64,000 nt of DNA. It comes from Acidobacteriota bacterium (GTDB taxonomy: Bacteria > Acidobacteriota > Thermoanaerobaculia > Gp7-AA8). A model generated the notes under the pieces. That model saw nothing but the letters and a program-made list of their open reading frames with translations, was not told the DNA's origin and ran no database searches. Position 1 is the first letter of the stretch. Each line of letters opens with the position of its first letter. Where the stretch lies: the NCBI GenBank assembly GCA_021325515.1, contig JAJPHC010000030.1, forward strand, positions 142,976-206,975. The letters run 5' to 3'. Below, one piece after another: positions 4,887 through 61,974 of this stretch. The translations under genes and the position numbers were made by a program.

Positions 4887-7253
4887 ATGATAATCAAGCT
4901 CGTGCGCCCCCGGTGGATCCTCATCGCTCTCCTCCTCACGTCGTGTGCGTCGCTCGACAGCCGGATCGCTGAAGACGCGCCGGAGGCCGCGGCGCAGTAC
5001 TTCGCGGCGAAGCGCGGCAACGTCGATGTCGTCGCGCGCTGGTCCGCGGCAGCGGAAGCGATTCGCGCGCGGTCGCACGGCCGTTTCGCATCCGACGCCA
5101 TCGCACGCGAGCCCTGGCAGTTCCTCGGTCCGGGCAACATCGGAGGACGAACGCGCGCGCTGCTCGTCGATCCGAACGACGGCAACACGCTGTATGCCGG
5201 AGCGGTCTCCGGCGGCGTGTTCAAGAGCTCGAACGCCGGCATCACGTGGCAGGCGATCGGCGATGCGATGAACAACCTCGCCGTCTCGACGCTCGCGATG
5301 ACTCCGGGCGATTCACGCACGATCTTCGCCGGAACCGGCGAGGGCTACTTTCGCGAAGATGTCCGCGGCACCGACGTCCCGATCCGCGGCGACGGAGTCT
5401 TCGTCACCCACGACGGCGGCGAGAGTTGGACGCAACTCGCCGCGACGAAGAACAACAGCGACTTCTACTGGATCAACAAGCTCGTCATCAGCACACACGA
5501 CCCGCGCCGCATCTACGCCGCGACGCGCAGCGGCGTGTGGCGTTCCGCCGACGCAGGAGTGTCGTGGACTCGCATCCTCGGCACCACGGCCAAAGGCGGT
5601 TGCCTCGATCTCGCGTTCCGCGGCGATACGGGCGGCGATTATCTGCTCGCGTCGTGCGGCATCTTCGATCGCGCATCGGTCTATCTCGCGAAGAACGCCG
5701 AGGGCGACGCGAAGTGGGAGGAGGTGCTGACGAGCCCGGAGATGTCGCGCACTTCGCTCGCGTTCGCGCCGTCGAATCCGTCGATCGTCTATGCGCTCGC
5801 CGCGCGCAACGCGAGCGGCGAGAGCGATCAGTCGCTGCTCGCCGTCTATCGTTCCGAACGGGGCGGCGAGGCGGGTACGTGGGTCGCGAAGCAGACGTCC
5901 ACCGGCGCCGAACCGGGATCGCTGCTGCTCATGAATCCCTATCTGGCGACGCTGCCGGAATGCAGCGAGACGCCGGCGCGCGCATCGATCAGCTCGATGG
6001 GATGGCACTGCAACACGATTGCTGTCGACCCGCTCGATCCGGATCGCGTATGGGCGGGAGGCGTCGACCTCTTCCGGTCCGACGATGGCGGCGCGTCGTG
6101 GGGCGTCGCTTCGTACTGGTGGACCGATTCGACGTCGTCCGGATTTTCGCACGCCGATCACCATGCGATCGTGTTCGATCCGCACTACGACGGCGCATCG
6201 AATCAGCGGATGTACGTGACGAACGACGGCGGCGTGTTTCGCACCGACGACGCGCGCGCCGCGGTCGCCACAGGCGCACGCGCAACCTGCGACGACAGGA
6301 ACACGTCCGTGCACTGGACCACGTTGATGCGCGACTTCGGCGCGACGCAGTTCTACCACGGCGCCGTCACCTCCGACGGCCTCACCTTCCTCGGCGGTGC
6401 GCAGGACAACGGCACACTTCTCGGCCGCTATGCGGATGGCGTCAACGGCTGGCAGATGATCTGGGGCGGCGACGGCGGCTATGTCGCCATCGATCCGCGC
6501 GACGACAGGCACTTCATCTTCCAGTCGCAGTACGGCGCACTGGTCCGCACACCGGACAGCGGCAACAAGACGACGTCGATGATGCCGAGCTTTCAGGACA
6601 AGTTTCTCTTCGTCACGCCATTCGTCTTCGATCCGCAGGACAGCAATCGCGTCTGGTGCGGCGGCACGAAGATCTGGCGCGGCTCTTCGACGGTCACGTT
6701 CTGGCTCCAGGCATCGAACGCCTTGGACGGCTCGGTGAGCGCGATCGCGGTCGATCCGGCGAATTCGTCCTTCGTGATCGCCGGCACGACGACGGGAAAG
6801 GTCTATCGCAGCGCGACCGCGAACGATGACCTGATGGCGAACTGGGCATGGACATCGCCGCGCAGCGGCTGGATCGCATCGCTGATGTTCGACGGAGGCG
6901 CGATCTACGCGACGTACGCGAATTTCGGCGGGCCGCACGTCTGGAAGTCGCTCGATGGTGCGCAGACGTGGAGCGCGATCGACGGCGATCTACCCGATCT
7001 TCCTGTACACGCGATCGCCGCCAGCCCGCTCGATCATCGCCTCTACATCGGCACGGACCTCGGCGTCTTTTCCTCGCTCGACGGCGGCGCACACTGGCTG
7101 CACGAGGACGCGCTGCCGCAGGTGATCACCGAATGGGTGCAGCCCGGCCGCGGCATGCGCGGCCCCGCGATCTACGCCTTCACACACGGCCGCGGAGTCT
7201 GGCGCACAGAGTTGACGGAGACTCCGGCAAGGCGCCGCGGGGTGGGACGATAG
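4887..7253 (+). CDS. Asp-box (BNR/sortilin-like) beta-propeller lipoprotein
   Basis: A 788-residue secreted protein. Start ATG 4887 follows GGAGGAGG closely and gives a lipoprotein signal (LIALLLTSC, Cys at 19-20). Repeated Asp-box motifs of the form S-x-D-x-G-x-x-W recur through the length, for example FVTHDGGESWTQL, WRSADAGVSWTRI, FRSDDGGASWGVA and FSSLDGGAHWLHE. These mark one or two multi-bladed propellers of the sortilin/VPS10/YCF48 superfamily, common in Acidobacteriota and Bacteroidota as surface proteins. No glycosidase catalytic residues can be assigned, so a binding or scaffold role is as likely as an enzyme. Its stop (TAG) is inside the left arm of a long palindrome. Confidence 0.85.
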   Translation: MIIKLVRPRWILIALLLTSCASLDSRIAEDAPEAAAQYFAAKRGNVDVVARWSAAAEAIRARSHGRFASDAIAREPWQFLGPGNIGGRTRALLVDPNDGNTLYAGAVSGGVFKSSNAGITWQAIGDAMNNLAVSTLAMTPGDSRTIFAGTGEGYFREDVRGTDVPIRGDGVFVTHDGGESWTQLAATKNNSDFYWINKLVISTHDPRRIYAATRSGVWRSADAGVSWTRILGTTAKGGCLDLAFRGDTGGDYLLASCGIFDRASVYLAKNAEGDAKWEEVLTSPEMSRTSLAFAPSNPSIVYALAARNASGESDQSLLAVYRSERGGEAGTWVAKQTSTGAEPGSLLLMNPYLATLPECSETPARASISSMGWHCNTIAVDPLDPDRVWAGGVDLFRSDDGGASWGVASYWWTDSTSSGFSHADHHAIVFDPHYDGASNQRMYVTNDGGVFRTDDARAAVATGARATCDDRNTSVHWTTLMRDFGATQFYHGAVTSDGLTFLGGAQDNGTLLGRYADGVNGWQMIWGGDGGYVAIDPRDDRHFIFQSQYGALVRTPDSGNKTTSMMPSFQDKFLFVTPFVFDPQDSNRVWCGGTKIWRGSSTVTFWLQASNALDGSVSAIAVDPANSSFVIAGTTTGKVYRSATANDDLMANWAWTSPRSGWIASLMFDGGAIYATYANFGGPHVWKSLDGAQTWSAIDGDLPDLPVHAIAASPLDHRLYIGTDLGVFSSLDGGAHWLHEDALPQVITEWVQPGRGMRGPAIYAFTHGRGVWRTELTETPARRRGVGR

Positions 7254-7413
7254 GACAATAGGACCTATGGGACCTATGGGACCTATGGGTGGAGGCCGTT
7301 CTCCACTGTAGGTACATAGGATGGGAGACAGGACCTATGGGGAGAACGGCCTCCACCTATAGGTCCCATAGGTCCCATAGGTCCCATACTCCCATACTCC
7401 CATCCTCCCATCC
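7244..7413. repeat. Long 3' palindrome built of 9-base units (GGGACCTAT)
   Basis: Left arm 7261-7304 and right arm 7341-7384 are reverse complements over 44 bases with one G-U-type difference; the loop is 36 nt. Each arm contains three to four GGGACCTAT/ATAGGTCCC units followed by the unique GGAGGCCGTTCTCC. Further degenerate units extend outward (GATAGGAC on the left; ACTCCCAT, CCTCCCAT on the right). The stop codon TAG of the propeller gene (7251-7253) is read from a repeat unit, and the stop of the convergent GDSL gene follows at 7416. A bidirectional terminator is the simplest role. Confidence 0.85.
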
Positions 7414-10217: not shown

Positions 10218-10775
10218 ATGCGCGCACTCATCGCCTGCTGCCTGCTGACTGCTGTTTGCTGCTTCGCCTGCCATCAGGAGACCGCTGTCACCGGCACGAC
10301 CGACACCCGCGATCCGATCGCGATCCAGTACGCGGGCGTCTCGGAGCTGCCGGTCCATGCGAAGCCTGACGATCACTCGAAAGTCGTCACGAAGTATCTG
10401 AGCGGCGAAAGCGTCTCGATCCTCTCGCGCAAAGGCGACTGGTCCGAGGTGCGGACGGTGGAGGGAAGCGGCTGGGTGCACACCGCTGATCTCACCACGG
10501 CGCAAAGCGCGAAGACGGAAGAAGAGAATCCAACGCCGAAGTTTCGCGTGCCGCCATCTCCCGTCAGCGCGCCAACCGCGCACGGCGTCATCTACCTCGA
10601 GGCCGACGTGAACACGGACGGAGACGTCACCCACGTCGACGTGCTCGCCGACGAGCCCAAAGACCCCAGCCTCCTCCAGCGCAACATAGCCTCGCTGATG
10701 CAGGCAAAGTTCTACCCGATCGTGCAGAAAGGGCAGAAGAAGGCATTCAAGTACGACTATCGGGTGGAGTATTGA
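10218..10775 (+). CDS. SH3-domain lipoprotein with TonB-C-like tail (paralogue 1)
   Basis: A 185-residue lipoprotein. The signal peptide MRALIACCLLTAVCCFAC is encoded by four NCTGCTG heptamers (10234-10261). Residues 30-90 form a bacterial SH3 domain (PVHAKPDDHSKVVTKYLSGE, then SILSRKGDWSEV and GSGWVHTADL). The last 70 residues resemble a TonB C-terminal fold (IYLEADVNTDGDVTHVDVL, FYPIVQKGQKKAFKYDYRVE). A clear paralogue sits two genes on at 12699. Bacterial SH3 domains bind cell-wall peptides, so an envelope structural role is likely. The stop TGA is the first codon of a 50-bp palindrome. Confidence 0.75.
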   Translation: MRALIACCLLTAVCCFACHQETAVTGTTDTRDPIAIQYAGVSELPVHAKPDDHSKVVTKYLSGESVSILSRKGDWSEVRTVEGSGWVHTADLTTAQSAKTEEENPTPKFRVPPSPVSAPTAHGVIYLEADVNTDGDVTHVDVLADEPKDPSLLQRNIASLMQAKFYPIVQKGQKKAFKYDYRVEY

Positions 10776-10879
10776 TGGATGGGATGGGACTATGGGACCT
10801 ATAGGACCTATGGGACCTATAGGTAGCCGCCCATAGGTCCCATAGGTCCTATAGGTCCCATAGTCCCATCCCATCCATC
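10774..10879. repeat. 50-bp-arm 3' palindrome built of 9-base units
   Basis: Left arm 10774-10823 and right arm 10830-10879 match as reverse complements at 49 of 50 positions, with a loop of only six bases (TAGCCG). The arms are tandem GGGACCTAT-type units bounded by GATGGATGGGATGG. The arm begins on the second base of the TGA stop of the SH3 lipoprotein. Such a stem would be extruded readily as a cruciform or would fold in RNA as a near-perfect 50-bp hairpin. It lies between two same-strand genes. Confidence 0.9.
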
Positions 10880-10914
10880 CATCCAAACCCTCGCCTCCCT
10901 CGTAATCCTTCTCG

Positions 10915-13259: not shown

Positions 13260-13482
13260 GCGCGGTGCATGGCGCAGGGCGCCCTTCGGGCGCGGCGCAG
13301 GGCGCCCTTCGGGCGCGGCGCGAGGCGCCCTTCGGGCGCGGCGCGAGGCGCGGGGCGCGGGGCGCCGGGCGTGAACCGGTTGCATCGAACAGCTGAGACC
13401 TTTCTCTGTGCCTGACGCCCAGCGCCTAGCGCCCAGCGCCGCGCGAAGCGCCTCGCGCCCAGCGCCGCGCGAAGCGCCTCGC
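13258..13482. repeat. GGCGC-based tandem array and inverse array (23-mers, 26-mers)
   Basis: The left part holds three tandem 23-base units (13275-13343; CAGGGCGCCCTTCGGGCGCG plus GCG), each itself palindromic around CGCCCTTCGGGCG. After a 40-base unique centre, the right part holds two exact 26-base units (13429-13454 and 13455-13480) made of GCGCCCAGCGCC and GCGCCTCGCG blocks. The right array is broadly complementary to the left. The upstream stop codon TAG belongs to the same theme (CTAGGCGC matches GCGCCTAG on the right). It sits 3' of the SH3 lipoprotein and just before the DinB-like gene. Confidence 0.8.
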
Positions 13483-13496
13483 GCGATAATGCGCAC

Positions 13497-14655: not shown

Positions 14656-16599
14656 ATGCAACAGTTTCGCTTCGATATTCGCAACGTGGCGATCATCGCC
14701 CACGTCGATCACGGCAAGACCACGCTCGTCGACGCTCTCCTCAAGCAGGCCGGCGCCATCCGCGCCAACCAGCAGGTGGACGAGCGCGTCATGGACTCGA
14801 ATGACCTCGAGAAAGAGCGCGGCATCACGATTCTCGCCAAGAACACGTCCATCCGTTACCTCGTCGATGAGCCCGACGCCCTCGGCCATCCCGCGCATCA
14901 CGAGGCGACACACACCTCATCGGGCCACGATCTTCCCGCCGACTTCGTCCATCCGAAGGAAGTGAAGATCAACATCGTCGACACGCCGGGCCACGCCGAT
15001 TTCGGAGGCGAGGTCGAGCGCGTGCTGTCGATGGTCGACGGCGTCATCCTTCTCGTCGATGCGGCGGAAGGGGCGATGCCTCAAACCCGCTTCGTGCTCC
15101 GCAAAGCGCTCGGCCTCGGCCTGCTGCCGATCGTCGTCATCAACAAGATCGACCGCAGCGACGCGCGGCCGCAGGAAGTCGTCAACGAAGTGTTCGACCT
15201 CATGATCGAGCTCGGCGCGTCGGACGAGCAGCTCGACTTCCCGATCCTCTACGCAATCGGCCGCCAGGGCATCGTCCGCTCCGAACTGGGCGACAAGAAC
15301 GACGATTGCCGGCCGCTGTTCGACGCGATCCTCAAGCGCATTCCTCCCCCGCCGGGATATGTCGACGCGCCGCTGCAGTTGCTCGTCTCGGCGATCGACT
15401 ACAACGAGTACGTCGGCCGCCTCGGCATCGGCCGCGTTCAGCGCGGCAGGATCCGCCAGGGCGAAGACGTCATCCTCATCCTGCGCGACGGCACGCACAA
15501 GAAGGGACGCGTCACGAAGCTGACGGCGTTCGAAGGTCTGAAGCGCGAAGAGATCAGCGAGGCCGCGGCCGGCGAGATCGTCGCCATCGCCGGTTTCGCC
15601 GATGTCGAGATCGGAGAGACCTTCGCCGCGGCGGACGCGCCGGAGCGGCTCGAGCCGATCGCGATCGATGAGCCGACGGTGTCGATGTTCTGGCTCGTCA
15701 ACGACTCGCCGTTCGCGGGAACCGAAGGCAAGTACGTCACTTCCCGCAACATCAAGGAGCGCCTCGAGCGCGAGCTGCGCAAGGACGTCGCGCTGCGCGT
15801 GCGCGAGACGGAGCAGGCGGATCGCTTCGAAGTCTCGGGACGCGGCGAGCTGCATCTGTCGATCCTCGCCGAGAACATGCGCCGCGAAGGCTACGAGTTC
15901 GCGCTGTCGCGGCCGCAGGTCATCCTGAAGGAGATCAACGGCAAGACGATGGAACCGTACGAAGCGCTCGTCGTCGACATCGATGAGGCGCACGTCGGTC
16001 CGATCATGGAGAAGCTGCAGATCCGCCGCGCCGAGATGACGGACATGGTCAACCCCGGCACCGGCCGCGTCCGCATCGAGTTCAAGATTCCGACGCGCGG
16101 TCTGTTCGGCATCCGCACCGAGTTCCTCAGCGAAACGCGCGGCACGGGACTGCTGTATCACACGTTCCTCGAGTACGGTCCGTTCCGCGGCGAGATCACG
16201 AGCCGCAACCGCGGCGCACTCGTCTCGAAGGAAGGCGGCGACACGACGGCCTATGCGATCGAGCCGCTGCAGGAGCGCTCGATCCTCTTCCTCGGGCCCG
16301 GCGTGAAGGTGTACGGCGGTCAGATCGTCGGCGAGAACTCGCGCGACGTCGACATGGTCGTGCAGGTCTGCCGCAAGAAGCACCTGACGAACATGCGCGC
16401 ATCGAGCTCGGACATCGCGGTGCAGCTCACGCCGCCGCGCATCATGACGCTCGAGCAGTGCCTGGAGTGGATCGATGACGACGAGCTGGTGGAAGTGACG
16501 CCCGAGTCGATCCGCATCCGCAAGAAGATCCTCGATCACTCGCAGCGCGAAGTCGCCCGAAAAAAAGCGAACAAAGCCACGGAGATGGCCGAGGCTTAA
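14656..16599 (+). CDS. typA: Ribosome-associated GTPase TypA/BipA
   Basis: A 647-residue translational GTPase. G1 is AHVDHGKTT (15-23), G2 lies in ERGITI, G3 is DTPGHADF (109-116) and G4 is NKID. Elongation-factor domains II, III and V and the TypA-specific C-terminal region follow. TypA binds the 70S ribosome and supports 50S assembly and stress growth. Unusual here is a histidine-rich insert of about 35 residues (68-103) between switch I and G3, with six His (78, 81, 82, 86, 91, 99); the typical protein has a short strand there. The stop TAA lies in the arm of a palindromic repeat. Confidence 0.95.
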
Positions 16600-16637
16600 G
16601 TTGGTTTTCGGGGGTCACACCTGGAAAATCAACTTAA
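16596..16637. repeat. REP-like palindrome R, single copy, carrying both convergent stops
   Basis: TTAAGTTGGTTTTC (16596-16609) and GAAAATCAACTTAA (16624-16637) are inverse over 14 bases with one wobble; the centre is GGGGGTCACACCTG. The TAA of typA (16597-16599) lies in the left arm and the TGA of the polyphosphate kinase gene (16629-16631, minus strand) in the right. Two further copies in inverted orientation sit at 58387-58481, so this is a dispersed element. The T-rich arms suit a bidirectional intrinsic terminator. Confidence 0.85.
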
Positions 16638-18059
16638 CTGGTCCACAACCGTCCGCAGCACCTCGAGCCGCGCGAACCGTTTGTCGTTCGCCGGAACGAG
16701 ATGCCACGGCGCGACCGCGGAGCTCGTGCGCGTCACCACGTCGTGCACGGCCTCCGCGTAACGCGACCACTTCTCGCGATTGCGCCAGTCCTCTTCCGTG
16801 ATCTTGTGCTGCTTCCACGAGATCGACTTCCGCTCCTCGAACCGCCGCAACTGCTCGTCGGGATCGATGTGCAGCCAGAACTTCACGAGGGCGATGCCAT
16901 GCTCCGCGAGCTGCTCCTCGAAGTCGTTGATCTCGCGATAGGCGCGCGACCATTCATCGGCCGTCGCGAAGCCTTCCACCCGCTCGACGAGCACGCGGCC
17001 ATACCACGAGCGATCGTAGATCGTCATCGAGCCGGCGCGCGGGATCTGCCGCCAGAAGCGCCAGAGATAGTGCTGCGCGCGCTCCTCATCCGTCGGAGCG
17101 GCGACTGAGATCACGCGATAGATGCGCGCGTCGATCGGAGCGATGAGTCTGCGGATCGCGCCCCCTTTCCCCGCCGCATCCCATCCTTCGAACATGATCA
17201 CCGACGACTGCCCTTCCTCCCACTGCTTCCACGCGATGTCGCGCAGTTGCTTCTGCAGCTTGGAGAGCTTGCGATCGTAATGGTCATCGTCGATGGTCTT
17301 CGTGAGATCGACGTTGTCGAGGACTGTCGGTCCCGTCAGCTGCGAGGCAGGCGTCGCGGCCGCCTGCGGAATGGGGCGGTCGACGCCTTCCAGAGCCTCG
17401 AGGACGATGCGCGCAACGGTGAGATCGCGATAGCGCTCGTCGGTCGCCTCGATGATCTTCCACGGCGCTTCGACCGTGTCGGTGCTGCGGATCGCGCGAT
17501 CCGATACCGAGGCGAATCGATCGTAATGCGCGGCGTACTTCTTCGCTTCCGGCCCCCACTTCGACTTGCGGCCGAGGCGGGCGAGCTCTTCGTCTTTGGG
17601 AAGATGGAGCCAGAGCTTGACGATGATCGCACCGTCCTGCGCCAGCATCCGTTCGAAGAAGACGATGCGCTGCATCTCGCGATCGAAGTCCGCCTTGCTC
17701 GTCTTCCGGTAGACGCGTTCGACGATCGGCTGCGTGTACCACGAGCCGAAGAAGATCCCGATCGTTCCGCGAGGCGGGAGCTTGCGCCAGAACTTCCAGT
17801 AGCGCGGGCGCTCGCGCTCTTCGTCGGAGTCGCGCCAGAACGCGTGAGCGCTCAGGCCGCGCGCGTCGAGCCATTCGTGCAGCCGGTTGACGACGTCGCT
17901 CTTTCCCGCGGTCTCGACGCCCGAAACGATGATGATGACCTGCCGTTTCGACTTCGTCAGCCTGCGCTGCGCCGCCAGCAGTTGCGTTCGCAGCTCCGGC
18001 ACTGCGGCTTCGAATTCCTTTTTCGACACCGTGCGATGAAGTTCTGCAGCTTCGAACAT
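16629..18059 (-). CDS. Polyphosphate:AMP/ADP phosphotransferase, double PPK2 domain
   Basis: 476 residues made of two fused PPK2 domains. The N-terminal copy has a P-loop GVETAGKSD (47-55) and the C-terminal copy GWDAAGKGG (near 290), each followed by its own lid region (FWRDSDEERERPRYWKFWRK; YLWRFWRQIPRAG). Two-domain PPK2 proteins are class II polyphosphate:AMP phosphotransferases that make ADP from AMP and polyphosphate. Only the second P-loop keeps the canonical GxDAAGKG, consistent with one catalytic and one structural domain as known for the class. It converges with typA; the two stops lie in opposite arms of one palindrome. Confidence 0.9.
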   Translation of the reverse strand: MFEAAELHRTVSKKEFEAAVPELRTQLLAAQRRLTKSKRQVIIIVSGVETAGKSDVVNRLHEWLDARGLSAHAFWRDSDEERERPRYWKFWRKLPPRGTIGIFFGSWYTQPIVERVYRKTSKADFDREMQRIVFFERMLAQDGAIIVKLWLHLPKDEELARLGRKSKWGPEAKKYAAHYDRFASVSDRAIRSTDTVEAPWKIIEATDERYRDLTVARIVLEALEGVDRPIPQAAATPASQLTGPTVLDNVDLTKTIDDDHYDRKLSKLQKQLRDIAWKQWEEGQSSVIMFEGWDAAGKGGAIRRLIAPIDARIYRVISVAAPTDEERAQHYLWRFWRQIPRAGSMTIYDRSWYGRVLVERVEGFATADEWSRAYREINDFEEQLAEHGIALVKFWLHIDPDEQLRRFEERKSISWKQHKITEEDWRNREKWSRYAEAVHDVVTRTSSAVAPWHLVPANDKRFARLEVLRTVVDQLS

Positions 18060-18109
18060 GGGTGCTCTATACCGCGATCGCGCGTTTCTGGCTGTGATCG
18101 GCGTTACCC

Positions 18110-18317
18110 GGGCGCGGGGCGCTGGGCGCGGGGCGCTGGGCGCGGGGCGCTGGGCGCGGGGCGCTGGGCGACAGGCACGAACGAGCTCGTGTGCTTCTCG
18201 CTTGCGATGTTCGATTCAGCCGCGATGGTTCCCAAACATGCGTCTCGCGCCTCGCGCCTCGCGCCTAGCGCCTAGCGCCCAGCGCCGCGCGAAAGCGCCG
18301 CGCGAAGCGCCCCGCCC
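18110..18317. repeat. GGGCG tandem array and inverse array (7/14-mers)
   Basis: Four exact 14-base units GGGCGCGGGGCGCT (18110-18165), each two heptamers, face a right-hand run of seven degenerate heptamers (18241-18289: CGCCTCG, CGCCTAG, CGCCCAG). About 70 bases of unique sequence form the loop. The right side ends beside the stop (TCA 18318-18320) of the minus-strand gene, so it is again a 3' element. The theme matches the array at 13.3 kb closely, making two loci of one sub-family. Confidence 0.8.
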
Positions 18318-18701
18318 TCACACCGGCCGCTGCAAGCTGTTCGGGTTCTCGCCGGCTCGGAGGGAAATGCGCGCGCCTTCCTCGCCGAGCTCGAGGCATT
18401 CGAAATAGTTGCGGACGTACTGGCCGAGGCGGTCGCCGGCGATGTGGGCGCGCTCGAGCTCGTCAACTAGTTGACGGCCCAGCTCCGCCGCCTTCCCGCG
18501 CACCTGCTCCGCTTCCGCCCCTTCCGGATTCTCCTCGTTCGCGCTGTAGCGGAACAGCAGATTCGACATCGCTTCCGCCGCCTCCAGCACCGCTTCGGCC
18601 GTGATCCCGTTCTCTTCCACGTGCCGCTCCAGCAGATTCAGGATGCGATCCGCCATGCGGCCGGCGTGGGGAATGTCGAGCGGGATATCGAAATGCGCCA
18701 T
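18318..18701 (-). CDS. Hypothetical helical protein
   Basis: 127 residues, acidic and predicted mostly alpha-helical (MADRILNLLERHVEENGITA; AAELGRQLVDELERAHIAGD). There is no signal peptide, membrane segment or recognisable catalytic motif, and I do not recognise a family. It is divergent from the metallophosphoesterase with 17 bp between start codons, and its 3' end meets the 7-mer array. The coding character (GC-rich third positions, no antisense candidate) supports a real gene. Confidence 0.6.
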   Translation of the reverse strand: MAHFDIPLDIPHAGRMADRILNLLERHVEENGITAEAVLEAAEAMSNLLFRYSANEENPEGAEAEQVRGKAAELGRQLVDELERAHIAGDRLGQYVRNYFECLELGEEGARISLRAGENPNSLQRPV

Positions 18702-23675: not shown

Positions 23676-23794
23676 GGTCACTTGGGCTCGCAGTTACGCG
23701 GGCTCGCGGGCTCGCGGTGGCTTCATTCTGAAAAAGCTCTGTTAGAGCTAACTCCCACCACCGCGTGCCCGCGAGCCCGCGAACCCGCGTGACC
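23676..23794. repeat. GC-rich 3' palindrome, GCGGGCTC family, locus 2
   Basis: Between convergent cytochrome genes. The outer arms GGTCAC (23676-23681) and GTGACC (23789-23794), then octamer runs (CGCGGGCT twice, CGCGGTGG) face CCACCGCG and three NCCCGCGN octamers on the right. The loop itself contains AGCTCT-GTT-AGAGCT (23735-23749), a perfect small hairpin. The outermost GGTCACGCGG sequence is shared with the locus at 61.3 kb. Confidence 0.8.
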
Positions 23795-23796
23795 AA

Positions 23797-28200: not shown

Positions 28201-28773
28201 CTCGGCCTCGTCGAGAATCAGAACTACATCCACTACCGCAAGGGATCCCTGGTCATGTACGAGCTGCGCGAGGCAATCGGCGAAGAGAACGTGAATGCCG
28301 CGCTGCGCGACTTCATCAGGGAACATGCGTTCGCCGGCCCGCCGTATCCGACGACGCGCGATCTCATCGCGAAGTTCCGCGCGCACGCTCCCGCCGACAA
28401 GCAGACGGTGATCACCGATCTCTTCGACACGATCACGCTCTATGACAACAAGGCGAAGGAAGCGACCGCGAAGCAGCGGCCGGACGGCAAGTGGGACGTC
28501 ACCGTGACCGTCGAATCGAAGAAGCTGCGCTCCGATGATCGGGGCCGGGAGCACGAGATCCCCATCAACGACACCATTGAAGTCGGCGTGCTCGGCGAAT
28601 CGAAGAGGAAGAAGGACAATGACAACATCCTCATCGTCGAGAAGAAGCTGATCAACGCGCCGCGAATGACGTTCACCTTCACCGTCGATAAGAAGCCGGT
28701 CAAGGCAGGGATCGATCCTCAGCTGAAACTGATCGATCGGAATCCGGACGACAATACGGTCAGTGTGAATTGA
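25201..28773 (+). CDS. ABC-2 permease fused to M1-family aminopeptidase
   Basis: A 1190-residue fusion. Residues 1 to about 590 contain two sets of six or so membrane helices (ABC-2 permease halves). The remainder is an extracytoplasmic M1-like metallopeptidase: the zinc site HEVGHQWW is at 932-939 with Glu956 (ITETLAQ) as third ligand, and a C-terminal domain ends near 1190. The 19-residue spacing between H936 and E956 is one more than in classical M1. A tryptophan-free linker rich in K/E (about 600-620) joins the halves. A coupled export-and-trim function is plausible but unproven. GTG start, overlapping the ATPase stop. Confidence 0.9.
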   Translation: MTWNIFKFELRYHFRSPLFYILFTLFFFMTFGAVTSDGVQIGGALGNVNKNAPFVIMQFLLIMSTFGVLTSTAYVASAIHRDFELNTDSLFFSSPVKKWQYLTGRFSAAYVASSLVYLSVVLAIMVGSKMWWVDKDRIGPFLLKPYLFSYFALVLPNLLLFAAIFFGIAALTRSLMWTYVSVAAFYVGYITSRVLIAKNLENLVLKSLTDPFGMAPFSLNTRYWTVFDKNTRILSLDGAFLYNRLLWIGVAFAVLAITYWKFRMQIAGTGGGRKRAAADEAPLERVNLQLPRVQQRFDPATSWKQFTSTIAVETGAILRSLPFLIILLLGILNALGNAIAGSSLFDTSVYPVTHVMVEAINGGFVVFAIIIATFYAGEIVWRERSVKLNDVYDAMPAPTWSMWLGKLTALLLMLYATLAMAVLTTICVQLGKGYYNLELGVYAKSIFFVTGIDVVLFAVLTFFAHVLTNNKNVGYLFALLYIISSSALGALHFEHRLYNVMNLPDIRYSDMNGFGHYLAQHLWFMLYWTLFAGVLLVAVHLLWVRGSESSFPIRRRIAMQRFGRPAIACTVLLLAGFASTGCYIFYNTNVLNTYVTADKLEKQQAETEKLYKKYETIPQPRITDAQADVDIYPEKRWVDVRGKYTLVNKTGAPISDIHISMNPEVSRFTCTVPGATRVQHDPDHGYSIYRLRQPMQPGASLEVSYAVEIHNRGFQNEFRDNTIVENGTFVNNFGAFPHLSYAALNEIQDPAKRKKYGLPPVVRMAKIDDKAAQMNSQLGHESDWINLDTTVSTSADQIALAPGYLQKEWTQNGRRYFHYKTTSPIWAFWSYLSARYSVKRGMWKDVPIEIYYDAKHPFDVDRMIYSVQKSLDYFTTNFSPYQHKQVRIIEFPNYQRFAQSFPNTIPWSESIGFIADLRDKDDIDYVFYVGAHEVGHQWWAHQVCGAQVQGATMITETLAQYSALMVMEKEYGRDKMRRFLKFELDRYLAGRGGELVAEMPLGLVENQNYIHYRKGSLVMYELREAIGEENVNAALRDFIREHAFAGPPYPTTRDLIAKFRAHAPADKQTVITDLFDTITLYDNKAKEATAKQRPDGKWDVTVTVESKKLRSDDRGREHEIPINDTIEVGVLGESKRKKDNDNILIVEKKLINAPRMTFTFTVDKKPVKAGIDPQLKLIDRNPDDNTVSVN

Positions 28774-28855
28774 TGATGGGACGGATGGGACGTATGGGAC
28801 GGATGGGACCGATGGGACGGATGGGTAGCTATCCGTCTTATCCTTCCATCATTCC
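28774..28855. repeat. 3' tandem 9-mers (GATGGGACG) with short inverse arm
   Basis: Five and a half GATGGGACG units (28774-28825) start directly after TGA 28771-28773. The right arm (28831-28843, ATCCGTCTTATCC) pairs only with the last one or two units, allowing G-U pairs, then runs into the stop of the convergent ZIP gene (TCA 28849-28851). The right side appears eroded because it is next to coding sequence. Same unit family as the palindrome at 30.9 kb. Confidence 0.75.
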
Positions 28856-30215: not shown

Positions 30216-30926
30216 ATGCGTCGAATGAACATGAAGAGCAAATTACAGGCCACGCTGCTGGCATTATGTCTAACCATCCCCTGCTTCGCCGACGATCTCA
30301 TCAATGCCGATCGCCCCGGCATCGCCGACGGCAGCACGACGGTCGATGCCGGCAAGTTGCAGGTGGAGCTCGGACTGGAGCGGGATACGGGCAACGGCCC
30401 GTCGTCGACCACGACTCCACTGCTCATTCGCTACGGAATCACGAAAGCGATCGAGGCGCGCATCGAGACCGGCGGCTTCACCCGCTCCGCGGGCGACAGC
30501 GGCCTCTCGCCGGTTTCCGCCGGCCTGAAGATTCACTTCCTCGATCGTCCGTCGCTGGGGCTGATCGCGCGGGTCTTTCCACACTCCGGCAGCGGCACGT
30601 TCAAGTCATCGAAGACGACCGCCGATCTGCGTCTCGCAGCCGACCGCGATCTGTCGGAGAAGTGGTCGATCGAAGGCAACATCGGCGTGGAGCACGGCGA
30701 TCAAAACTCCGGCCTGCTCGCGGCAACGCTTCAATACAACATCTCGCCGGCGATCAACGTGTTCGTCGACGGCGGAGCAACGACGAATCCGTCCTCCCTG
30801 CTGCTGGACGCGGGAACGGCGTGGATCATCGGCAAAGACCTGCAGCTCGACTTCTCAGCAGGATTCGGCGCGCATGGGGATGTGCCGGATCGGTTCGTGG
30901 CAATGGGAGTGAGCAGAAGATTTTGA
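30216..30926 (+). CDS. Outer-membrane beta-barrel protein (phenol-degradation MetA/PF13557-like)
   Basis: 236 residues with a signal peptide (LQATLLALCLTIPCFA). After the mature start ADDLINADRPGIADG, alternating beta strands end in the terminal aromatic Phe (GVSRRF) typical of BAM substrates. The N-terminal DRPGxADG motif is common in the transporter family annotated as MetA-pathway-of-phenol-degradation or in related putative porins. Three in-frame ATGs exist (30216, 30225, 30231); 30216 has GGAG 13 bases upstream. Its stop TGA is the first codon of a 46-bp palindrome shared with the convergent receiver gene. Confidence 0.75.
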   Translation: MRRMNMKSKLQATLLALCLTIPCFADDLINADRPGIADGSTTVDAGKLQVELGLERDTGNGPSSTTTPLLIRYGITKAIEARIETGGFTRSAGDSGLSPVSAGLKIHFLDRPSLGLIARVFPHSGSGTFKSSKTTADLRLAADRDLSEKWSIEGNIGVEHGDQNSGLLAATLQYNISPAINVFVDGGATTNPSSLLLDAGTAWIIGKDLQLDFSAGFGAHGDVPDRFVAMGVSRRF

Positions 30927-31026
30927 TGGATGGGAGTTATGGGACGGATGAGACGGATAGGACGGATGGGGAGAACGAGTCCCATCCGTCCTATCCGTCC
31001 CATCCGTCCCATACGTCCCATCCATC
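30925..31026. repeat. 46-bp-arm 3' palindrome built of 9-base units (GGGACGGAT)
   Basis: Left arm 30925-30970 and right arm 30981-31026 match at 43 of 46 positions with a 10-base loop (GAGAACGAGT). Units are GGGACGGAT and variants. On the plus strand the arm opens with TGA-TGGATGGGA at the barrel gene's stop. On the minus strand it opens TGA-TGATGGATGGGA at the receiver gene's stop, so the two sides are anchored symmetrically on two stop codons. Confidence 0.9.
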
Positions 31027-31027
31027 A

Positions 31028-31432
31028 TCACTCGCGCTGAAACTTCAGTAAGTTCCCCTTGGCCTCCGCGCTTCGCGACTCCGCCGCGGCCATGATCAGG
31101 TCGGACAGCACGTCGATATCGAACGGCTTGCGGATCACGGAATGGACGATCGAGCCGTCGACCTTGCGCAACGCGGCCGTGTCCGCCGCACTGACGAGGA
31201 TGATCGCGGGATGTTCTCCCGCCATGTCGCGCACGTGATCGATGACGCCGTAGCCGTCGACGTTCGGCATCATCAGATCGAGAATCACGACCTGATACGG
31301 GTTCTCGTCGAGCTTTGCAATCGCCTCGGCACCGTCCCTTGCGACATCCGCATGGAATCCCGCCCGCTGCACGATGCGCGCAACGAGAGCGCGGATCGCC
31401 GGCTCGTCATCGGCCACTAAGACACGAATCAC
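31028..31432 (-). CDS. Single-domain response regulator, divergent from the PQQ operon
   Basis: 134 residues, receiver domain only. Acidic pocket VADDEP, acceptor Asp in ILDLMMPNVDG, Ser in LVSAAD (where Thr/Ser is expected) and Lys in IRKPFD. GTG start at 31432. It shares a 76-bp divergent promoter region with the quinoprotein dehydrogenase operon, a position that would suit control of that operon by protein-protein contact; it has no DNA-binding domain. A relative lies at 29581. Confidence 0.9.
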   Translation of the reverse strand: MIRVLVADDEPAIRALVARIVQRAGFHADVARDGAEAIAKLDENPYQVVILDLMMPNVDGYGVIDHVRDMAGEHPAIILVSAADTAALRKVDGSIVHSVIRKPFDIDVLSDLIMAAAESRSAEAKGNLLKFQRE

Positions 31433-57509: not shown

Positions 57510-58391
57510 GTGAATCTTCTCCTCCTCGAGCGCACACTCGCTGCACGAGCTCCGGAGGGGCGCGCGTGCGTGCCGGTCATCGGGGCCGGCGTCAACATTC
57601 AGGCGGCGCTGCAGGATGGTGCGCGCAACACGAATGACTGGGACGGCCTGCTGAATCGCGTGAGCGAGGAAGTGGGCATCGACGGTCCGTTGCCGCCGAC
57701 TCCTCTTGCGAAATGGGAGACGCTGCTTCGCCGCTGGTCCCTGCACAAGCGCGTCGAGCCGTTCAAGGCGGAAGAACAGTTGCAGGCGTTCGTCTGCCGC
57801 GAGTTGCGCGCGCATGAAACGACGACGGCGCGCTACAGCCTGTACGGCGAATTCCTCGATGCCGGTTTCCGCGACATCATCTCGTTGAACTTCGACCGGC
57901 AGATCGCCCTGCATCGAACGAACGAGCGATTCATCGCGCCGCGGCGCCGCGACCTCCTCTACAGGCACAGCATCGCCGGCGCGACACGCATCTGGTATCC
58001 GCATGGCGACACGCGGAAGTCAGCGACGCTCAAGCTCGGCGTCCGCAAGTACGGGATGCTGATCGGAACACTCGAGCGCGAACGGACGCGGATCATGGCC
58101 GCGACGAGGTCGAGAGGACGCGACACCTCCCGCGCGCACTGGCTCGATCTCATCCTCCTCGGCGCGCCGCTGGTGTTCATCGGCTGCGGACTCGCCGCCG
58201 ACGAGTGGCCGCTCTGGTGGCTCCTGCATCAGCGCGCGCGAAACTGCGGGCACTCGGCAGAGACTTGGATGCTGTCGACGAAAGGCAGCACCGCGCCGCA
58301 CCTCGCCGGCTCCCCCTCCGGAGTCCACGTCGTCGAGTTCGACTCCCACGCAAAACTCTGGCAATTCGTACGCACCGCCCTCTCCCGTTAA
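57510..58391 (+). CDS. SIR2-like domain protein (SIR2_2 type)
   Basis: 293 residues from GTG 57510. SIR2-like NAD-fold motifs: ACVPVIGAGVNIQAAL, IISLNFDRQI (Asn-x-Asp), WYPHGD (His) and LVFIGCGLAADEW. Zinc cysteines of true sirtuins are absent. Proteins of this domain act as NAD hydrolases in several anti-phage systems, but stand-alone copies also occur and no defence partner is present here. The Arg-rich TARYSLYGEFLDAGFRD region is typical of SIR2_2. The stop TAA is inside the first R palindrome. Confidence 0.7.
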   Translation: MNLLLLERTLAARAPEGRACVPVIGAGVNIQAALQDGARNTNDWDGLLNRVSEEVGIDGPLPPTPLAKWETLLRRWSLHKRVEPFKAEEQLQAFVCRELRAHETTTARYSLYGEFLDAGFRDIISLNFDRQIALHRTNERFIAPRRRDLLYRHSIAGATRIWYPHGDTRKSATLKLGVRKYGMLIGTLERERTRIMAATRSRGRDTSRAHWLDLILLGAPLVFIGCGLAADEWPLWWLLHQRARNCGHSAETWMLSTKGSTAPHLAGSPSGVHVVEFDSHAKLWQFVRTALSR

Positions 58392-58481
58392 GTTGGTTCC
58401 TGGGGGTCACACCTGGAAAATCAACTTAACGCGGCGCGTTAAGTTGATTTTCCAGGTGTGACCCCCGAAAACCAACTTAAC
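58387..58481. repeat. REP-like palindrome R, inverted pair
   Basis: Two 44-base copies in opposite orientation (58387-58430 and 58438-58481), separated by GCGGCGC. Each has outer arms GTTAAGTTGR / YCAACTTAAC and a core GGGGGTCACACCTGG. The second copy is the exact inverse of the form at 16.6 kb; the first has TTCCT in place of TTTTC. The SIR2-like stop TAA (58389-58391) is in the outer arm. The whole unit is itself a 95-base palindrome. Confidence 0.88.
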
Positions 58482-58554
58482 GTCACGGGGACGTGTGATG
58501 GGGGTCAACGCTGCGTTGCTGCCTTCAGGCCCACTGTGGGGTCAGGAGGAAGCC

Positions 58555-59531: not shown

Positions 59532-59534
59532 AGG

Positions 59535-59613
59535 GATGAGTGACGAGTGATGAGTGACGAGTGATGAGCGGGGGCCTGCTTGACACTCATCACTCGGCAC
59601 TCGTCACTCGTCC
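59535..59613. repeat. Heptamer palindrome (GATGAGT/GACGAGT)
   Basis: Left: alternating GATGAGT and GACGAGT units (59535-59568). Right: CACTCATCACTCGG and CACTCGTCACTCGTCC (59584-59613). The arms are inverse over about 29 bases with four differences, two of them G-U-compatible. The outer end of the right arm lies three bases from the stop of the minus-strand carboxylase (TCA 59616-59618), the left next to the HAD start. Confidence 0.8.
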
Positions 59614-61246: not shown

Positions 61247-61321
61247 GGTCACGCGGTTGCGCGGTTGCGCGGGACAGGACGACTTCAGCGCGAGCCCGCG
61301 AGCCCGCGCTACCGCGTGACC
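61247..61321. repeat. GC-rich 3' palindrome, octamer family, locus 3
   Basis: Left GGTCACGCGGTTGCGCGG (61247-61264) with octamers CGCGGTTG; right CGCGAGCC, CGCGAGCC, CGCGCTAC, then CGCGTGACC (to 61321). The last codons of the hydratase gene (Val-Thr-Arg-stop) are encoded by GTCACGCGGTAG, that is by the repeat arm itself. The outermost GGTCACGCGG is identical to the locus at 23.7 kb. Confidence 0.8.
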
Positions 61322-61974
61322 AACTGATACAACTCCCCAATCCGCTCTCCCATCAACTTCAACTCCGCCGCCGACAATCGTCCCGCGTGAATGGTCAACT
61401 GCTTGACGATCTGCGTCATCGCCGGGTCGAGCGCGCGCAGGCGCTCGAGGTCGGGCTCGCCGATGCCGTCGATCAGGCCGAGCGACTGCGCCTCTTCCGC
61501 CCCCAGCACGTGATTCGCGAGGAAGAGCTGATGCGCGGCGGGGCGCGCCAGCACCTTCCGCCAGCGTGACGTGCCGCCGAAGCCCGTGACGATGCCCAGC
61601 TTCGCGCCGGGATGCGAGAAGCGCGAGCGCGCAGTGGCGTAGCGGAGATCGAACGAGAGGATGAGATCGAGGGCGCCGCCGAAACAGTCGCCGTCGATCA
61701 CCGCAACCGTGATCGCCGGCAGCCGCTCGATTGCATCGAACACCGATTGGCCGAGCCGTGCGAACTCCCAGGCCTGGAACGGGGTGAAGCGCTCCATCTC
61801 CGCCATGTCGGCCCCGGCGGCGAACACCGAGGGCCGTCCAGAGCGGAACACGATGACGCCGCCGCGCACCTTCTCGATCGCATCACGCAACTCGAGTAGC
61901 GCAATCGACGAGAGAAGGTTCATCCCGCCGTCGTCGAAAACGATTTCATGTTCATGAACAGTGAAGCGCGGCAT
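61309..61974 (-). CDS. Enoyl-CoA hydratase/isomerase family protein
   Basis: 221 residues, shorter than the usual 255-260. Oxyanion-hole segments [12 protein letters not shown] and [19 protein letters not shown]; the Glu of classical crotonases (position of [14 protein letters not shown]) is replaced, so this may be an isomerase-like or methylglutaconyl-CoA-type member. Being transcribed with an MccB-like gene suggests leucine/isovalerate catabolism, where methylglutaconyl-CoA hydratase is the following step; that is inference. The C-terminal residues come from a repeat arm. Confidence 0.82.

Follow-up and report, generated by a model that had tools for sequence, protein, structure and literature searches.

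Two genes converge on a long palindrome in the window, by which we mean the whole 64-kb stretch of DNA analysed:

30216 to 30926 (alternative start 30225), plus strand: gene of a Phenol_MetA_deg-like outer-membrane protein (PF13557)
30924 to 30926, plus strand: TGA stop of this gene, which doubles as the initial 3 bases of the palindrome's left arm
30924 to 31027, no strand: palindromic element of the 9-mer family, a gene-less hairpin with arms at 30924-30970 and 30981-31027 and a loop at 30971-30980
31028 to 31030, minus strand: TGA stop of the minus-strand gene, just beyond the right arm, with a second in-frame TGA (31027-31025) within the arm
31028 to 31432, minus strand: response regulator receiver gene (PF00072)

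The 47-nt arms of this inverted repeat are 94% complementary, and both RNA strands fold into a single long stem-loop, with energies of -90.9 (plus) and -91.4 (minus) kcal/mol and z-scores of -13.5 and -12.8, respectively. The plus-strand gene (30225(30216)-30926) ends in TTT-TGA with TGGATGGGA at once after it, and the minus-strand gene (31028-31432) ends in TGA (31030-31028), followed by the in-frame TGA (31027-31025) and then TGGATGGGA. The sequence-only reading, according to which both genes end in TGA-TGGATGGGA, is thus right for the plus-strand gene and off by one codon for the minus-strand gene (TGA-TGA-TGGATGGGA). Its view that the boundary is alike on both strands holds in so far as the arm is mirrored, with TGATGGATGGGA on both sides, but the stop lies inside the arm for the plus-strand gene only. 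Since the C-terminus of the plus-strand product (..SRRF or ..SRAF, followed by the stop) is common to orthologues, the stop of this gene is native. No Rfam family was found in the 64-kb window, and no terminator-like call was obtained at 30924-31030, where the U-tract of a Rho-independent terminator is lacking; a canonical terminator is accordingly rejected.

Further hairpins of the same family, whose arrays are built of the 9-bp unit GGGACCTAT/GGGACGGAT, lie elsewhere in the window:

7240 to 7405, no strand: 9-mer hairpin with a long loop, between convergent genes ending at 7253 (plus) and 7414 (minus)
10771 to 10882, no strand: second 9-mer hairpin copy, flush behind the stop of the gene at 10218-10775
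28774 to 28848, no strand: 9-mer hairpin with unequal arms, which fills the gap between the convergent stops at 28773 (plus) and 28849 (minus)

The 10.8-kb locus had been said to use the same boundary. Its plus-strand gene (10218-10775) does end in TGA-TGGATGGGA, but the junction is found on one side only, because the right neighbour is a plus-strand gene. The stretch ATGGGCGGCTACC in the loop of this hairpin recurs at the inner margin of L298, a gene-bearing element described below. Other repeats in the window include two GGGCGCT/GCGCCCA inverted arrays (13265-13487 and 18089-18320), GGGCGCT also enclosing the IVP gene of L311; arrays of the 8-mer GCGGGCTC (23678-23796 and 61275-61327), which is the unit of the IVP element L312; a GAGTGAC hairpin (59534-59613); and REP-like TTAAGTTGGTTTTCGGGGGTCACACC palindromes (58373-58495 and 16596-16638, with further loci of this genome at C51 153839 and C44 21959). 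The TTAAGTTGGTTTTCGGGGGTCACACC palindromes give flanking genes a TAA stop, in two places both convergent genes at once, and they also flank the Y1_Tnp gene L279. No orthologue of 57570-58391 was found in 17 genomes besides the source genome.

TGGATGGGA occurs 6 times in the window, compared with 0.36 expected, and the 5.38-Mb genome holds 12 sites of TGATGGATGGGA and none of its reversed control. Ten of the 12 sites genome-wide lie within 3 nt of a gene stop; the TGA is the called stop in 8 of them, the second of two in-frame TGAs in 2, and off-stop in 2. At one of the two off-stop sites (L308), the called gene reads across the junction in a different frame, up to a TAG stop inside the array. 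We also used a sample of 1.245 Mb out of the 5.38 Mb, picked non-randomly by contig, with genes called by a simple codon-usage caller made for this analysis rather than a published one. There, 8 of 20 TGGATGGGA sites lie 0-3 nt past a called stop and 6 of 20 exactly 0 nt past it, for which the chance at a random site is 0.0004. Hence the junction motif is indeed commoner at gene stops than expected.

The sequence-only reading took this recurrent junction as a possible insertion or copying target. The junction does recur, and empty and filled sites of related elements in cyanobacterial plasmids (see below) back an insertion boundary; TGA-TGGATGGGA itself, however, is not the target. The proximity of TGATGGATGGGA to stops at 10 of 12 sites would suit such a target, but 9-mer arrays lie flush behind TGA, TAG and TAA at 31, 10 and 3 of 44 gene ends, respectively (background usage 392, 175 and 111 of 678 genes), they begin at stops in many unit phases, and array-associated TGGATGGGA ends away from gene stops are preceded by TGA in only 1 of 6 cases in the 1.245-Mb sample. 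Moreover, the median length of convergent spacers without a hairpin is 24 nt, and where a hairpin is present, what is left of the spacer beside it has a median of 11 nt (22 versus 149, p = 0.32), so that two-sided flushness is largely explained by convergent spacers being compact anyway and cannot be taken as a special signal. Therefore, we consider a sequence-specific insertion or copying target of this kind very improbable. In tandem gene pairs of the source genome and three relatives, the hairpin gap is 10 nt or less at the upstream gene end in 42 of 82 cases versus 7 of 82 on the downstream side (Wilcoxon p = 1e-7). Flush anchoring is real, yet largely a consequence of compact spacers. A fixed link between the stop and the inward strand of the hairpins (71 versus 48 hairpins, 47 ties, p = 0.04) was too weak to be retained.

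The 1.245-Mb sample contains 92 strong inverted repeats, of which 49 are tandem, 22 convergent, 12 divergent, 6 in genes and 3 at edges. Besides the 9-mer, their families comprise the 7-mers GAACGAT, GAGTGAC, AAAATTG and AATTCAG, the 8-mer GCGGGCTC, GGGCGCT, and the REP-like TTAAGTTGG and GTAGGACAGG. For 58 genes, a hairpin begins between -40 and +10 nt relative to the gene end. In 16 of them the arm sets in over 3 nt before the end of the gene, so that the stop codon comes from the element: TAA from TTAAGTTGG, TAG from GTAGGACAGG and TGA from 7-mer units. Arms of the 9-mer family are positioned behind the gene's own stop in 17 cases, partly so in 2, and inside the gene in 1. We conclude that an element whose unit contains a stop (the TTAA, GTAG and 7-mer families) provides the stop of the gene, and that the 9-mer family usually lies behind a native one.

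Palindromes moved by Y1 transposases, as in REPIN/RAYT systems, are one possible source of such hairpins. The genome has 7 Y1_Tnp matches, one of which (L279) is flanked by TTAAGTTGG palindromes, and REP termini are reported as a source of stop codons in PMC3733652. However, no 9-, 7- or 8-mer array is among the inverted repeats listed round the 7 Y1_Tnp loci, and the 9-mer ends carry no GTAG/CGTC tag, being of the TGGATGGGA/GATGGGA type. This origin holds for the TTAAGTTGG family and fails for the 9-mer family; for the palindrome at hand, it is highly unlikely.

As the C-terminal lengths of the left window gene (SRRF/SRAF), argS (..RM) and an M1-peptidase fusion gene are kept in relatives, the stops of these genes are native. 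Relatives are mostly hairpin-free at the orthologous ends, and some have a different unit there, such as the GTGCTGA hairpin behind the M1-peptidase fusion gene in G001. Conservation of the hairpin at orthologous ends is thereby rejected, since at argS, glnS and the M1-peptidase fusion gene most relatives have none or a unit of their own. In three relatives, 140, 140 and 120 kb contain 16, 34 and 24 hairpins, respectively, with mostly other units, and the 9-mer pattern, with 169 occurrences in the source genome (G000), is present in only 2 of 59 other genomes.

Within the 9-mer family, 25 of 42 clusters have both orientations, and the ATGGGAC arm is on the left in 24 of these 25. The arms of one hairpin are more alike than arms of separate loci, and their GG/CT unit types agree (r = 0.81; reached in 0 of 10000 permutations). 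Loops of different copies share 6-mers in 78 of 300 pairs, compared with a shuffled mean of 20. The agreement of arms and that of loops both fit copies of one element that have probably been kept palindromic. Quasi-palindrome correction would equally yield similar arms and a common GG/CT type (r = 0.81) if the hairpins were common RNA structures of gene 3'-ends, either terminators or decay barriers, that had grown by local slippage and template switching, with the IVP gene an unrelated passenger, and the location at gene 3'-ends, the bidirectional use and the extreme RNA stability would suit this as well. We nevertheless find it improbable, as one unit at many dispersed loci needs copying, a U-tract terminator call is absent at the locus, the genome has a Rho gene, orthologous ends are mostly hairpin-free, and the enclosure of IVP genes far exceeds that of controls (next paragraphs). 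A second Rho-like gene (G000:C55:85837-86934; 465.8 bits, cut-off 509.45) was noticed beside the true rho.

We identified a gene-bearing form of the 9-mer palindrome in the same genome (L298/L316), whose arms stand about 570 nt apart, with an ORF of the four-helix-bundle family between them. This ORF, a '4helix_suffix' IVP, scores 28.8 bits with TIGR02436 (cut-off 24), 73.8 bits with TIGR04258 (cut-off 40), and 26.8 bits with PF05635, under the Pfam cut-off of 33.8. Its predicted model (mean pLDDT 72) had no significant match in the PDB, 2gsc ranking 10 with an E-value of 0.77. As a generalisation of the 23S rRNA intervening sequence, we propose to define an IVP/S23 hairpin element by arms of one unit round an IVP gene in the same genome, as found at L298/L316; the window copy is gene-less. 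The short 9-mer hairpins, which may be MITE-like derivatives of the gene-bearing form, have unit and arms in common with L298, and their loops share only short stretches with its margins (a weak likeness, 20 of 26 loops compared). In the source genome, 9-mer arms accompany only 1 IVP.

More generally, all 7 PF05635 genes of the source genome lie within inverted arms, and their units all differ (the 9-mer, GTGCTGA, GGGCGCT, GCGGGCTC, GAACGAT, AAAATTG and AACGCAG). With an IR score of at least 14 in 400-nt flanks as the criterion, enclosure was found at 55 of 58 testable loci in the relatives G001-G018 of the same family or order (74 IVP matches, 61 loci covering 62 of them; L332, L337 and L375 excluded for too short flanks), at 3 of 8 class-level loci (8 of 39 IVP matches sampled) and at 13 of 18 plasmid loci. 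By comparison, 5 of 214 control genes of similar size are enclosed, two of which are themselves IVP genes (3 of 212 without these). For cyanobacteria, the control counts are 2 of 300 for random segments and 0 of 19 for CDS. No enclosing inverted arms were seen at L357, L361 and L371 (family/order), 5 of 8 class-level loci and 5 of 18 plasmid loci; 9-mer arms are likewise absent from L361, which in G004 is the nearest homologue (73%) of the 9-mer IVP. The GAGTGAC family has 10 hairpins in the sample, and no IVP with this unit is among the 7 of the source genome. The class-level relative G033 has 25 PF05635 matches, the locus examined being L327. In addition, DNA topoisomerase I models match the C-terminal part of the TIGR04258 IVPs L019, L047 and L361 (~250-265 aa) with scores under the cut-off.

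In a tree of 78 IVP domains, the proteins group by unit family across genera, and arm similarity climbs with IVP protein identity (Mantel-type r = 0.417, reached in 0 of 5000 permutations), although descent alone would let a gene diverge together with the arms linked to it, with no recognition involved. The unit period is 7 in 54 of 67 cases, 8 in 11, 9 in one and 6 in one. Units of IVP arms are dispersed mainly at home: those of G000 are found at 75.5 loci/Mb in G000 and at 0, 7.1 and 58.3 loci/Mb in G004, G008 and G009, those of G008 at 142.9 loci/Mb versus 4.8, 7.1 and 25.0 elsewhere, and those of G009 at 108.3 loci/Mb versus 13.7, 0 and 14.3 elsewhere, counts in which some IVP elements lie within the searched stretches and are self-counted once. 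The exception is G009, which is nearly as dense in G000 units as G000 itself.

IVP genes with such flanks also occur in other phyla. With one IVP as the query, 22 plasmid records were hit, mainly from Nostoc, Calothrix and other cyanobacteria, and also from Riemerella, Azospirillum and Gemmatirosa, of which 18 were taken for flank analysis; on plasmids of Nostoc, Calothrix and Anabaena, IVP genes have inverted heptamer arrays on their flanks. The 9-mer itself was found in 89 stretches of other phyla, mostly as plain tandem repeats, with a hairpin in 4 of 89 and a stop within 30 nt upstream in 11 of 89. Two of these stretches, in Armatimonadetes and Lentisphaeria MAGs (L019 and L047), encode TIGR04258 IVPs, the subfamily of L298, and in the Armatimonadetes MAG (L019) 9-mer arrays adjoin the IVP gene on both sides in direct orientation.

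Three cyanobacterial sites were found both empty and filled. Site 1 is empty in L386 and L409, which read ..TTCTAG/GTTATG (nearly the same sequence stands in L407 and L408), and filled, with ..TTCTAA/ATCAGGAGTCAGG..IVP..TT/ATG, in L390, L401 and L403. Site 2 is empty, with ..GAGGTAATGGGATTTG, in L390 and L407, and filled in L386, where ATG stands on both sides; this ATG, and a possible TTCTA at site 1, might represent target-site duplications, none being defined for the window copy. At site 3, 12 nt separate cas10 from cmr3 in Picosynechococcus PCC 7002 (empty), and an IVP element lies there in PCC 7003, where cas10 now ends at a TGA within the array. These Nostoc and Picosynechococcus insertions fall in the 0-12 nt from a stop codon to the next ATG. 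Thus, insertion of IVP elements into the very short space after a stop codon does occur, where targeting and survival are indistinguishable from the sites. Some cyanobacterial IVP elements lie inside CRISPR operons (L387 at cas10/cmr3; L396 and L399 at cas6/cas4).

In our interpretation, the palindrome in the window is a short copy, lacking the gene, of a dispersed IVP hairpin element. In the gene-bearing form of such elements, one S23/IVP four-helix-bundle gene lies between two inverted arms, which are made of tandem units of 7-9 bp, and each IVP lineage has its own unit. To this explanation as a whole, including the steps below, we give a probability of roughly 0.65. The architecture, the co-divergence of unit and protein, the dispersal of units in the home genome, and the precise cyanobacterial insertion between stop and next start are established by the data above, and they suggest a little-noticed class of transposase-free mobile DNA. 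As to the mobility mechanism and the cellular function of the hairpin elements, we infer that the IVP protein would recognise or bind the hairpin of its own repeat unit and help to copy or keep the element, gene-less copies included in trans. Copies probably survive mainly in gaps between genes and would for this reason come to lie flush against stop codons. Transcribed from either side, the palindrome would form a very stable stem-loop in the 3'-UTR, and decay from the 3' end or ribosomes at termination could be slowed by it; the window copy, if it acts at all, would act as such a bidirectional 3' stem-loop.

An unlikely but serious alternative is that the IVP is a passenger or stabiliser, and that the hairpins spread otherwise, by host slippage and template switching or by a reverse transcriptase in trans. 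The IVP has no known catalytic activity, and PMC10053308 describes PF05635 as a homologue of Avd, the accessory protein on which retrohoming of diversity-generating retroelements (DGRs) depends; both facts would suit this role. The unit-specific co-divergence, on the other hand, points to a close tie, though not to causation. For the IVP hairpin element that we favor, the same homology to Avd makes a reverse-transcribed hairpin a reasonable putative copying route.

A wider reading, which we put forward tentatively at somewhat less than even odds, would join these observations: S23/IVP proteins may represent a large cross-phylum class of hairpin elements without transposase, in which the protein lineage dictates the 7-9 bp unit, gene-less hairpins spread in trans to gene ends, perhaps in an Avd-like manner with a reverse transcriptase borrowed from the host, and which would have given rise to the GGGAATC palindromes of Xanthomonas and the intervening sequences of 23S rRNA as well as to the heptamer arrays of cyanobacteria. 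If true, heptamer tandem repeats, stop-flush palindromes and rRNA intervening sequences, all long unexplained, would have a common origin, S23/IVP proteins would gain a testable role, and their DNA- or RNA-repeat specificity would be predictable from protein phylogeny. It would also be useful for studies of hairpin-based copying without a known transposase.

No literature linking S23/IVP to dispersed tandem-unit palindromes was found in a search whose reach mostly did not extend to subscription papers. The cyanobacterial short tandemly repeated repetitive (STRR) heptamers are known as plain repeats, and we know of no description of them as arms of IVP elements; heptamer arrays are common to both. 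Xanthomonas GGGAATC heptamers, described in PMC4692102, form tandem units in 70-75 inverted pairs with the G-rich strand on the coding side, mostly 0-50 bp from stop codons and in some cases overlapping the stop. They resemble the elements here in their short tandem units in inverted pairs near or over stops, but the unit is a 7-mer discussed as a G-quadruplex repeat, and that text draws no link to mobile elements or to an S23 protein. The TAACTGA direct repeats described in PMC4679880 lie near start codons, a placement that differs from that of our hairpins. REPIN/RAYT and GTAG/CGTC REPs likewise combine a companion protein with many gene-less 3'-end palindromes whose termini give stops (PMC3733652), but they have a Y1 transposase, a single short palindrome and a tag tetranucleotide. 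The likeness to the DGR protein Avd lies in the homologous fold family of PF05635 (PMC10053308); the Avd model NF033474 scores 16.5-23.8 bits in 3 of 5 IVPs (cut-off 80) and does not match the other 2. Finally, the 23S intervening sequence (IVS) of Coxiella burnetii is a hairpin of terminal inverted repeats with an S23p ORF in its loop, adjoined by 2-3 tandem heptamers GACAGAT, and, according to PMC4990558, an old proposal holds that the ORF serves mobility, the function of the S23/IVP protein is described as unknown, and the X. campestris S23p is cited as a pentameric four-helix bundle; for this protein (XCC0516, 2gsc) a match was found here. The gene-bearing form alone resembles it in having an S23/IVP-family ORF in a hairpin loop. 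The IVS sits inside 23S rRNA and is excised by RNase III, whereas the hairpin copies described here lie between protein-coding genes, in many unit families and with numerous gene-less copies.
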